Shown: piece by piece, positions 5,411 to 44,244 of the stretch
Layout of the letters: each line of letters begins with the position of its first letter
How positions within the stretch are numbered: the first letter of the stretch is position 1
Origin: Actinomyces oris
Lineage (GTDB): Bacteria > Actinomycetota > Actinomycetes > Actinomycetales > Actinomycetaceae
Direction: 5' to 3'
Assembly: GCF_006546825.1 (NCBI RefSeq)
Contig: NZ_VICC01000006.1
Location: 124,001 to 188,000, forward strand
DNA length: 64,000 nucleotides
Program-made: the position numbers and the translations under genes
Notes under the pieces: model-generated
What the model was told of the DNA's origin: nothing
Seen by the model: only the letters and a program-made list of their open reading frames with translations
Database searches by the model: none

Positions 5411-5811
5411 GCGGACGAGCCGACCGGGCGGCCGCGGTACCGGCCACCGCCTTCATAGTGGTGGCGGGCTGAGGAACGTCCGGGCTCCACAGAGCAGGGC
5501 GGTGGCTAACGGCCACCCGGGGTGACCCGCGGGACAGTGCCACAGAGAGCAGACCGCCCACCGGATACCGGTGGGTAAGGGTGAAAGGGTGGGGTAAGAG
5601 CCCACCAGCGCGGCGGGTGACCGTCGCGGCTCGGTAAACCCCGCCCGGAGCAAGACCGCACAGCTGGCGCTTGAAGGCTGCTCGCCCGAGTCAGCGGGTA
5701 GGTCGCATGAGGCCGCTGGCAACAGTGGTCCAAGATGAATGGTCGCCACCGCCCAGGCCGGCAACGGTGGGCGGCAACAGAACCCGGCGTACAGGTCGGC
5801 TCGTCCGCCCC
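5411..5811 (+). ncRNA. rnpB: RNase P RNA (bacterial type A)
   Basis: The catalytic RNA that trims the 5' ends of precursor tRNAs. Its ends form helix P1: fifteen bases at 5411-5425 pair perfectly with 5794-5808. Inside are the hallmarks of the bacterial RNA: GAGGAACGTCCGGGCTCCAC near the 5' end (P4/CR I), the ACAGTGCCACAGAGAGCAGACCG segment split by CR II features, GGTAAGGGTGAAA, and the GGTAAGAGCCCACCAGCG segment. Open reading frames crossing this interval on both strands are artefacts. A strong hairpin 20 bases downstream ends the transcript. Confidence 0.95.
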
Positions 5812-40796: not shown

Positions 40797-40908
40797 GCCA
40801 TCCTCCGAGTTCTAGTCTGAGACCGACGGCGCGCCGATGTGCCGCCTCGCCTCACAAGGGCGATCGCAACCGGGTGGCTCTCCGGTCACCCACATGAGGA
40901 GGGCACGG

Positions 40909-43023
40909 ATGACCACTGAGGTCACAACATCTGCCACCACGGCGAGCGGCAATGACGCCTGGGAGGGCTTCGTTAACGGACCGTGGACCGAGGACATTGA
41001 CGTCCGCGACTTCATTCAGCGCAACTACACCCCCTACGACGGCGACGCCTCGTTCCTCGCCGACGCCACGGACAAGACCCTGCGTCTGTGGGACACCCTG
41101 GAGAAGGACTACCTCTCCGAGGAGCGCAAGGTTCGCATCCTCGACGTCGACACCCACACCCCCGCCGACATCGACGCATTCCCGGCCGGCTACATCAGCG
41201 AGGACGATGACGTCATCGTTGGTCTGCAGACGGATTCCCCGCTGCGTCGCGCCATGATGCCCAACGGTGGCTGGCGCATGGTGGAGACCGCCATCAAGGA
41301 GGCGGGCAAGGAGGTCGACCCCGAGGTCAAGAAGATCTTCACCCGCTACCGCAAGACCCACAACGACGCGGTCTTCGACATCTACACCCCGCGCATCCGC
41401 GCAGCGCGCTCGAGCCACATCATCACCGGTCTGCCCGACGCCTACGGCCGCGGCCGCATCATCGGTGACTACCGCCGCGTGGCGCTCTACGGCGTCGACT
41501 TCCTCATCGAGCAGAAGCAGAAGGCCAAGGACGCCGTGGCGGACAAGCCCTTCTCCGAGCACTGGGCCCGCTACCGCGAGGAGCACTCCGAGCAGATCAA
41601 GGCGCTCAAGAAGCTCAAGGTCATGGCTCAGACCTACGGCTACGACATCTCCGGCCCGGCCAAGAACGCCCATGAGGCGGTCCAGTGGACCTACTTCGCC
41701 TACTTGGCCTCCGTGAAGTCCCAGGACGGCGCCGCCATGAGTATCGGTCGTCTCTCCGGCTTCCTGGACATCTACTTCGAGCGGGACCTGCGCAACGGGG
41801 TCATCGACGAGACCCGCGCCCAGGAGCTCATCGACAACATCGTCATGAAGCTGCGCATTACCCGCTTCCTGCGCACCATCGACTATGACCAGATCTTCTC
41901 CGGCGACCCCTACTGGGCCACCTGGTCCGACGCCGGCTTCGGTGAGGACGGTCGCGCCCTGGTCACCAAGACCTCCTTCCGTCTGCTGCAGACCCTGCGC
42001 AACCTCGGCCCGGCCCCGGAGCCGAACATCACGATCTTCTGGGACGAGAACCTGCCGCAGGGCTACAAAGACTTCTGCGCCCTCATCTCGATCACGACGT
42101 CCTCCATCCAGTACGAGGCCGACGAGCAGATCCGTGAGCACTGGGGCGACGACGCCGCGATCGCCTGCTGCGTGTCCCCGATGCGCGTGGGCAAGCAGAT
42201 GCAGTTCTTCGGCGCCCGCGTCAACTCCGCCAAGGCCCTGCTCTACGCCATCAACGGCGGCCGCGACGAGATGACCGGCAAGCAGGTCGTCACCGGTCTG
42301 CCCGGCATCGAGGGCGACGGCCCCCTCGACTTCGACGAGGTCTGGGACAAGTACGAGAAGATGCTCGACTGGGTGGTGGCCACTTACGTCGAGGCCCTCA
42401 ACATCATCCACTACTGCCACGACCGCTACGCCTACGAGTCCATCGAGATGGCGCTGCACGACTCCGACATCGTGCGCACCATGGGCTGCGGCATCGCCGG
42501 CCTGTCGATCGTGGCCGACTCCCTGGCGGCCATCAAGTACGCCAAGGTCACCCCGGTTCGCGACGAGACCGGCCTGGTGGTCGACTACGTCACCGAGGGC
42601 GACTTCCCGATCTACGGCAACGACGACGACCGCGCCGACGACATCGCCGCCACCGTGGTCCACACGATCATGTCCAAGATCAAGGCCCAGCCCTTCTACC
42701 GCGACGCCATCCCGACCCAGTCGGTGCTGACGATCACCTCCAACGTGGTCTACGGCAAGGCAACCGGCTCCTTCCCCTCGGGGCACCAGAAGGGGACCCC
42801 CTTCTCGCCCGGAGCCAACCCGGAGAACGGGATGGACACCCACGGCATGGTCGCATCGATGCTCAGCGTCGGCAAGCTCGACTACAACGACGCCCTCGAC
42901 GGCATCTCGCTGACCAACACGATCACCCCGCAGGGACTGGGGCGCACGCTCGACGAGCGCGTCGCCAACCTCGTGGGCATTCTCGACGCCGGCTTCGTCC
43001 CCGACGACTGCGCCGAGATCTGA
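40909..43023 (+). CDS. pflB: Pyruvate formate-lyase large part, lacking its glycyl-radical domain
   Basis: Cleaves pyruvate with coenzyme A to acetyl-CoA and formate in anaerobic metabolism. The 704 residues match the PFL barrel, including [19 protein letters not shown] near the start, the catalytic cysteine pair at 420-421 (ACCVSPM), IFWDENLP and [18 protein letters not shown]. The protein ends at [16 protein letters not shown], so the last 55-60 residues of normal PFL, including the radical glycine, are absent. They are encoded by the next gene. This is not a simple stop: the next 76 bases are not PFL-like in any frame and contain a new ribosome binding site. ATG 40909 follows GAGGAGGG. Confidence 0.95.
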
Positions 43024-43099
43024 TCGAGCCGCTCAATCCGGCCGATCACACCGCAGCAATTTCCACACATCGATAACATCACCTCAGAAAGGGGCCACC

Positions 43100-43345
43100 A
43101 TGGCCACGTACGAAGAGCGCCTCGCCTCCATGAAGGCACAGCGTCAGGACAACGGCGGCGTCAAGGGCCTGTACCACGCCAACATCAACGTCCTGGACCG
43201 CAACACCCTTGAGGACGCGATGGAGCACCCGGAGAACTACCCGAACCTCACGGTTCGCGTCTCCGGCTACGCCGTCAACTTCGTCAAGCTGACTCGCGAG
43301 CAGCAGCTTGACGTCCTCCACCGCACCTTCCACTCCCAGGCCTGA
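43100..43345 (+). CDS. grcA: Separate glycyl-radical domain protein of pyruvate formate-lyase (GrcA/YfiD-like)
   Basis: An 81-residue protein that matches the C-terminal end of pyruvate formate-lyase: [19 protein letters not shown], then the radical loop [10 protein letters not shown] with the predicted radical glycine at residue 56, and [18 protein letters not shown]. About 28 residues at the N-terminus have no counterpart in the PFL chain and resemble YfiD-type proteins. In enterobacteria YfiD is a spare part that repairs oxygen-damaged PFL. Here the large subunit has no glycine domain, so this protein should be an obligate subunit. It has its own AGAAAGGGG site and lies 76 bases after pflB and 23 before pflA. 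Confidence 0.92.
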
Positions 43346-43368
43346 GCCCTGGAGCACGGCGAGCGGTC

Positions 43369-44244
43369 ATGACGCAGACCACGACGACCGTGCGCGACGG
43401 CGGTCGGGACCAGGACTTCCTGGCCCCGGCCGCCCGCTTGCGCGGTGCGGGCATCGGCGGGCTCGAGGAGCTGACGGATCTTCAACGCTCGGAGCGCCTG
43501 GCTCGGATGCGCGATGGCGAGCTGGGCTCGATCCACTCCTGGGAGCTCGTGACCGCGGTGGACGGTCCCGGCACCCGGATGACGGTCTTCCTCAACGGAT
43601 GCCCCCTGCGGTGCCAGTACTGCCACAATCCCGATACCTTCCTCATGAAGGACGGGGAGCCGGTCGAGGCTGAGGAGCTTCTCCGCCGCATGCGCCGCTA
43701 CCGGGGAGTGTTCCGCGCGTCCAAGGGCGGGATCACGCTGTCGGGCGGTGAGGTCCTCATGCAGCCGGCCTTCGCGGGCAGGCTCCTGGCCGGGGCCAAG
43801 AAGATGGGCATCCACACCTGCATCGACACCTCAGGGTTCCTGGGTGCCAATGCCAGCGATGAGATGCTCGATAACATCGACCTGGTCCTGCTCGACGTCA
43901 AGAGCGGTGACGAGGAGACCTACAAGAAGGTGACGGGGCGCTCCCTGGCTCCGACCATCACCTTCGGGGATCGTCTGGCGGCCAAAGGGATCGAGATCTG
44001 GGCCCGGTTCGTGCTGGTCCCGGACCTGACGGATGACCCTGAGAACGTCCACAACGTGGCCCGGATCATCGAGCGCTGGGGCTCGGTCAGCCGCGTCGAG
44101 GTGCTGCCCTTCCACCAGATGGGTACCGACAAGTGGGACGCCCTGGGACTGACGTACCAGCTTCGTGACACCAGGCCCCCGGAGCCGGAACTGGTGGAGT
44201 CCACTCGCGCCATCTTCCGTTCCTACGGCTTCGAGGTCCACTGA
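43369..44244 (+). CDS. pflA: Pyruvate formate-lyase activating enzyme
   Basis: A radical SAM enzyme that generates the glycyl radical. The 291-residue protein has the cluster motif GCPLRCQYCHNP (cysteines 78, 82 and 85), the GGE-type SAM motif LSGGEVLMQP, and the family stretches VDGPGTRMTVFLNG, LDVKSGDEETYKKVTG and VLPFHQMGTDKW. About 40 extra residues at the N-terminus precede the usual start of PflA. It is the third gene of the pflB-grcA-pflA cluster. The ATG at 43369 has only a weak ribosome binding site (GAGCGG), consistent with coupling to the upstream gene. A hairpin terminator follows. Confidence 0.95.
   Translation: MTQTTTTVRDGGRDQDFLAPAARLRGAGIGGLEELTDLQRSERLARMRDGELGSIHSWELVTAVDGPGTRMTVFLNGCPLRCQYCHNPDTFLMKDGEPVEAEELLRRMRRYRGVFRASKGGITLSGGEVLMQPAFAGRLLAGAKKMGIHTCIDTSGFLGANASDEMLDNIDLVLLDVKSGDEETYKKVTGRSLAPTITFGDRLAAKGIEIWARFVLVPDLTDDPENVHNVARIIERWGSVSRVEVLPFHQMGTDKWDALGLTYQLRDTRPPEPELVESTRAIFRSYGFEVH

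Follow-up and report, generated by a model that had tools for sequence, protein, structure and literature searches.

Pyruvate formate-lyase (PFL) is a central fermentation enzyme that is usually made as one polypeptide, and its radical is sensitive to oxygen. The PFL locus described here lies in a stretch of 64,000 nucleotides (nt) from Actinomyces oris (NCBI RefSeq assembly GCF_006546825.1, contig NZ_VICC01000006.1, positions 124,001 to 188,000 of the forward strand), which is referred to as the window. On the + strand of this window, a large PFL gene is followed by a small gene encoding a radical domain and by pflA (Table 1).

Division of PFL over two genes

The division is most apparent in the Gly_radical domain (PF01228, 106 positions), of which positions 1-65 are found on the large protein and positions 65-106 on the small one. 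This agrees with the original prediction, made from the letters of the window, that pflB stops before the radical domain and that the next gene encodes that very domain. In an alignment to E. coli PFL, the large protein corresponds to residues 9-693 and the small protein to residues 696-756, so that little of PFL is missing; by E. coli numbering, the cut point falls between residues 693 and 696. The large protein contains the PFL barrel (PF02901, 666 bits) with the adjacent cysteines 420 and 421, and its C-terminus consists of a helix and a short tail. The SGY motif with the radical glycine was looked for in the large protein and is absent; this glycine is located on the small protein (Gly56). 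The best NCBIfam model for the large protein is TIGR01255, with a score of 992.4 bits that is just below the cut-off of 994.2 and a match that stops at position 681 of 744. Its best PDB matches are formate acetyltransferases.

The small protein belongs to a family that has already been filed, i.e., the NCBIfam 'autonomous glycyl radical cofactor' GrcA2. It scores 166.2 bits against model NF008341 (cut-off 145) over positions 2-79 of 80 and is thus a full-length member. It fails the model of the classical GrcA/YfiD proteins (TIGR04365), with 84.6 bits vs. a cut-off of 170 and a match limited to residues 14-79, as well as the GrcA3 model NF038360, which corresponds to a second type of split PFL (type B, discussed below), with 98.5 bits vs. 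a cut-off of 158. The N-terminal extension of the small protein is about 22-25 amino acids (aa) long. It had been likened to that of YfiD/GrcA, which turned out to be wrong: its first 13 residues are outside the classical GrcA match, and the extension has a conserved sequence of its own.

Reading the intergenic gap in three frames confirmed that it is not PFL-like in any of them, and the small gene is indeed preceded by a ribosome binding site (RBS) of its own. A terminator-like site was searched for in the 76-nt gap and none was found. A structured RNA between the genes was considered as well and rejected (z -1.31; 25 of 200 shuffles were equally stable).

Table 1. Features of the PFL locus, in positions of the window.
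Feature	Position	Strand	Remarks
RBS of the large gene, GAGGAGGG	40896..40903	+	Read from the sequence, 5 nt ahead of ATG
pflB-like large subunit, 704 aa	40909..43023	+	PFL barrel and both active-site cysteines, without radical domain
Codons of the catalytic pair Cys420-Cys421	42166..42171	+	Equivalent to E. coli C418/C419
Intergenic gap, 76 nt	43024..43099		Not PFL-like in three frames
RBS of the small gene, AGAAAGGGG	43086..43094	+	Sequence reading
Small radical subunit, 81 aa	43100..43345	+	GrcA2, NF008341
N-terminal extension of the small subunit, codons 1-22	43100..43165	+	Conserved pattern T-x-x-E-R-L-A-x-M-K-A-x-R
Codon of radical glycine Gly56	43265..43267	+	Equivalent to E. coli PFL G734
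pflA, PFL-activating radical SAM enzyme, 291 aa	43369..44244	+	TIGR02493, 303.8 bits, cut-off 231.75

Occurrence and conservation of the split form

The genome that contains the window measures 3.17 Mb in 19 contigs and is rated 100% complete. A six-frame search of this genome returned one PFL barrel and no intact PF01228 domain, just the two halves. A full-length PFL elsewhere in the genome, which had been named beforehand as the finding that would count against an obligatory small protein, was searched for and not found. As the large protein lacks the radical glycine and no other PFL or intact domain was found, a working enzyme would have to obtain its radical from the small protein, in line with what had been proposed. 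Another type of glycyl-radical enzyme, a class III ribonucleotide reductase, is present as a 717-aa open frame (PF13597), and no pyruvate:ferredoxin oxidoreductase (PFOR) was found above the cut-off in this genome.

Related genomes were surveyed for full-length vs. split pflB, as had been advised. The 80 loci considered, which are the best of a longer list from a scan of named genomes and are numbered with the prefix L, comprise 46 full-length PFL genes, 33 split forms and one fused form. Among these loci, the large protein has its closest named relative in Actinomyces oris (L034, 99% identity). Both genes are complete in 31 of the 33 split loci; the large gene is interrupted in L065, a metagenome-assembled genome, and L095, which ends at a contig end, was classed through a whole-genome search. 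According to the names in the records, the split form occurs in Actinomyces, Propionibacterium, Arcanobacterium, Actinobaculum, Varibaculum, Trueperella, Corynebacterium, Brachybacterium, Helcobacillus, Rothia, Neoactinobaculum, and Pseudactinotalea. Thirty-five named genomes, for which completeness figures are absent, were searched whole: the 33 of the split type, Sanguibacter (L052), which has a full-length PFL, and Corynebacterium sp. Marseille-P4321, where a changed stop codon joins both PFL genes in one frame (L053:1684-4092). This search detected no full-length Gly_radical domain in 29 of the 33 split-type genomes; extra glycyl-radical enzymes are present in L040, L042, L048, and L058.

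At the family level, the small gene scores above the NCBIfam cut-off in 156 of 213 Actinomycetaceae genomes. Within the genus of the window this holds for 49 of 49 genomes, its own included, which excludes an assembly error. By hand count, 115 of the 156 genomes with the small gene have split pieces only, and 39 Actinomycetaceae genomes have a full-length domain without a small gene above the cut-off. In an order-wide sample the domain was matched at all in 180 of 396 genomes.

The surroundings of the genes were compared in 32 complete split loci, window included. All of these but L056 have an RBS-like core ahead of the small gene (31 of 32). A strict pflA motif is found at most 429 nt downstream in 29 loci and was missed at L040, where the contig ends, L061, and L062; this motif indicates presence only, since it was found downstream of just 12 of 47 full-length genes. 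At its start the small protein is conserved (T 91%, E 88%, R 100%, A 91%, M 97%, K 94%, R 100%, followed by G-L-Y), and the large protein has a conserved GF near its end in all 32 loci, followed by the short tail. The full-length PFL of the surveyed loci have neither the extension nor the GF with tail, which makes both of them candidate docking elements. In the predicted model of a relative's natural fusion, which is 55% identical to E. coli PflB over 738 structurally aligned residues, the extension is helical and lies in a low-confidence part. The start of the small protein weakly resembles the native helix that precedes the domain in PFL, a suggestive likeness at the sequence level. The idea that the extension is this native helix in degenerate form, left by a duplication with reciprocal truncation, was set aside as no more than suggestive: the best register is one residue off the native spacing, and 210 of 5000 column shuffles were as good over all registers, and 103 of 5000 near the native spacing.

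A proposed two-subunit enzyme and its alternatives

Taken together, the three genes probably encode a two-subunit PFL. Its small subunit would be obligatory rather than a spare part, given that the genome search returned no intact PFL; the probability of this reading, which is based on sequence comparison, is put at about 0.86. The large subunit would provide the PFL barrel with its two cysteines but not its final strand, the radical loop, or the C-terminal helix; these three would come with the small subunit as it docks into the open barrel. PflA would then create the radical on Gly56, from where it would pass to Cys421/Cys420 in the way known from one-piece PFL. As docking elements, the N-terminal extension of the small subunit and the GF with short tail of the large one would most likely stand in for the lost covalent link. 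The anatomy of the locus, the lack of an intact copy in the searches, its conservation, and the order of the genes are observed directly. Formation of the complex, transfer of the radical, and the docking role of the extension are what we infer from the sequences, and an exchange of the small subunit after oxygen damage is speculative. Compared to E. coli PflB (PDB 1h16/2pfl), the barrel, the cysteine pair, the radical loop, and the PflA partner are the same, whereas the radical domain in the window is a separate chain with a new N-terminal extension and the large protein ends with GF and a short tail.

Experiments in E. coli are informative here. A truncated PFL (residues 1-695), made in the laboratory with a nearly identical cut, was active with YfiD once activated and then matched wild-type activity (PMC8683613, in the excerpt available). 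Moreover, E. coli with a PflB lacking the radical glycine produces formate only if GrcA is present, which establishes the chemistry in trans in vivo (PMC12338860, in excerpt). In Mobiluncus mulieris and Fannyhessea (Atopobium) vaginae, whose PFL may be split or full-length, formate was about 90% lower in the presence of 1 mM of the PFL inhibitor hypophosphite (PMC12208373, in excerpt).

Several points weigh against an obligatory two-subunit enzyme. First, 41 of the 156 Actinomycetaceae genomes with the small gene also contain a full-length Gly_radical domain of some kind (hand count). Secondly, in the model of the natural fusion the radical domain is of modest confidence, with block scores (predicted local distance difference test, pLDDT) of 36-72 after residue 740, and the extension, with a pLDDT of about 44-52, is of low confidence. 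Thirdly, the formate data on A. naeslundii, for which the genome search of NCTC 10301 (L036) returned only split PFL pieces, concern strain DSM 43013, presumably the same type strain. In 20 h on glucose, DSM 43013 produced 2.53 ± 1.69 µg of formate per 10^6 cells, the highest value of three species (PMC6493303, in excerpt); this formate could stem from an enzyme outside the PFL family. Lastly, the truncated E. coli PFL had 32-fold less radical and its binding to YfiD was too weak to measure (PMC8683613), so that a working natural split would need extra binding.

The alternative that survives best, although very unlikely, is that the small protein serves as an optional spare like E. coli GrcA/YfiD, with the real PFL located elsewhere or the large protein acting alone. 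The name of the NCBIfam family suggests such a role, as do the 41 genomes mentioned above. GrcA of E. coli (TIGR04365; PDB 6owr) is likewise a small protein that comprises the radical domain only and is activated by the PFL activase (PMC8683613), but it has a longer, unmatched N-terminus and repairs a complete PFL, which was not found in the genome of the window. The lack of a full-length domain in 29 of the 33 named split genomes, the missing radical glycine of the large protein, and the failure of the small protein in the classical GrcA model argue against a spare part as well. Although the small protein is a full-length GrcA2, which by its NCBI name would be an optional cofactor, the genomes favour an obligatory subunit; the spare-part idea in this name is contradicted by the split-PFL genomes. 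The label 'autonomous glycyl radical cofactor' can therefore conceal an obligatory subunit, which concerns GrcA2 in 156 of 213 Actinomycetaceae and GrcA3 in 37 of 149 genomes of another class.

Even less probable is that the pair represents a decayed, inactive PFL (a pseudogene) or a recent mutation. A truncated frame always permits decay, and the changed stop codon in L053 and the interrupted large gene in L065 would fit such a scenario. Nevertheless, the small gene is above the cut-off throughout the genus, its extension is conserved, complete pairs are found across Actinomyces, Corynebacterium, Brachybacterium, Propionibacterium, Rothia, and others, and A. naeslundii excretes formate (PMC6493303). 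A comparably slight chance is left for a two-subunit enzyme that acts mainly on another 2-oxo acid, e.g., 2-oxobutyrate, rather than on pyruvate: sequence cannot fix the substrate with certainty, but the best PDB matches are formate acetyltransferases, TIGR01255 is the best NCBIfam model, and this is the sole PFL barrel found in a genome without PFOR above the cut-off. Ribosomal frameshifting or readthrough yielding one full-length PFL is hardly plausible either, since only 12 of the 32 gaps stay in the frame of the upstream gene and the other 20 are in the two other frames, close relatives differ in gap length (75 nt in L035, 76 nt in the window, 77 nt in L034), the gaps range from 4 up to 225 nt, and nearly all small genes have an RBS-like core; with gap lengths that span all three frames, the original prediction was right to dismiss a frameshift or single stop codon.

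If the two-subunit reading holds, split enzymes would make it possible to test directly the docking of a radical subunit, its activation, and perhaps its replacement after oxygen damage. In E. coli, the question of whether a truncated PFL can work with a radical domain on another chain has been addressed, and the binding turned out to be weak (PMC8683613). Natural split enzymes must have overcome this YfiD-type binding problem. In many bacteria from mouth, skin, and gut, no PFL other than the split design was found. Among the listed matches in open-licence PMC, with subscription papers outside this scope, no title or start of an abstract describes a natural split PFL, and GrcA2 and GrcA3 gave no match in open-licence PMC. 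A transposon study of Schaalia makes no mention of the split PFL genes (PMC12369343).

Type B and the evolution of the split

A search of the phylum with the GrcA2 model matched 66 of 396 genomes, 2 of them above the cut-off, and among the matches listed there are at least 21 short radical-domain genes in another class. Fourteen regions were examined, i.e., 12 with type B, one with a type A pair like that of the window (L134), and one with a full-length PFL (L135). Like the window, type B combines a truncated PFL with a separate radical-domain gene downstream. It differs in that PFL ends after LGK, about 12-17 residues earlier than the cut in the window, and that the large subunit has a new Cys-containing tail, both in 12 of 12 regions, while the small gene retains the native helix. 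Type B members are L124-L133, L136, L137, L151, L152, and L154. The tails are Cys-rich in the first twelve, with ends such as CSCC, CGCC, and CACC, but not in Collinsella aerofaciens or Subdoligranulum. The pair of C. aerofaciens (Coriobacteriia) is annotated as pflB and grcA3; other type B pairs are present in a record of Subdoligranulum variabile (Clostridia) and in a faecal contig labelled phage (L154). The 37 genomes with GrcA3 above the cut-off come from the 149 of the class around one type B member. Phage records also contain stretches like the small radical subunit (1533 of 50,697), mostly with Enterobacteriaceae hosts, and some of these are annotated grcA.

A type B large subunit has already been structurally solved, as PDB 38lb, a 'Formate acetyltransferase' of 739 aa without radical domain, aligns to it through position 737, tail included. 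No 38lb chain appears among the listed matches of the small subunits. PDB 38la, a 'Formate acetyltransferase' of 687 aa that also lacks the radical domain, has the same end point and could be a further type B large subunit or a construct. The authors of both entries may be aware of split PFL.

Coriobacteriia such as Collinsella, as well as Subdoligranulum, are presumably strict anaerobes. This separate split weakens the suggestion that a two-piece PFL fits facultative or aerotolerant life, as type B in such gut anaerobes argues against aerotolerance as the general reason.

In the tree, types A and B fall into different parts with good support, and either side of the division between them also includes full-length enzymes. 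Together with the different cut points, this points to two independent origins of split PFL. From the tree used for type A, L065 and L095 were excluded because of their incomplete large genes, and Bifidobacteriaceae were thinned to five rows; in the rooted version the outgroup does not form one side of a branch. The tree used for type B excludes thirteen near-duplicate rows and L147, which has a very long branch. Bifidobacteriaceae, although their PFL is full-length, branch inside the type A split clade, next to Neoactinobaculum (100/98). The motif HANINV is present in 32 of 32 small proteins, in 30 of 30 bifidobacterial PFL, and in Sanguibacter, and in none of 15 Cellulomonas-type enzymes. 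A re-fusion of a split ancestor is thereby suggested as the source of the one-piece bifidobacterial PFL, although approximately unbiased (AU) tests leave the alternative standing: one clade of all split forms was not rejected (p 0.218), nor was it once Sanguibacter was allowed to move freely (p 0.094). When Bifidobacteriaceae were freed instead, which tests Sanguibacter, the constrained tree outscored the free tree (p 0.64); Sanguibacter may be a pre-split sister. One full-length PFL, that of L153 (an unverified record with the label Bacteriophage sp.), falls inside the type B group, and one clade without it was rejected (p-AU 0.0003) for a group picked after the tree was built. This is a second hint of re-fusion.

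A broader picture would be that PFL was split at least twice at two cut points, with the small subunit as a cartridge exchanged after oxygen cleavage and repair as its normal mode, and that the split is reversible via bifidobacterial re-fusion. As a whole, this combination is rather doubtful.

Two other features of the window concern RNA genes. At positions 2501-2595 on the - strand, a tRNA of 95 nt with a long variable arm was called as Ile with anticodon UAU. No match to lysidine synthetase TilS was found in the own genome at E 0.001, while control genomes gave a match in 14 of 14 cases, 10 of them above the cut-off; hence this UAU tRNA may decode AUA in place of a lysidine-modified CAU tRNA. 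An ordinary class A RNase P RNA (283.9 bits) is located at positions 5416-5807 on the + strand.

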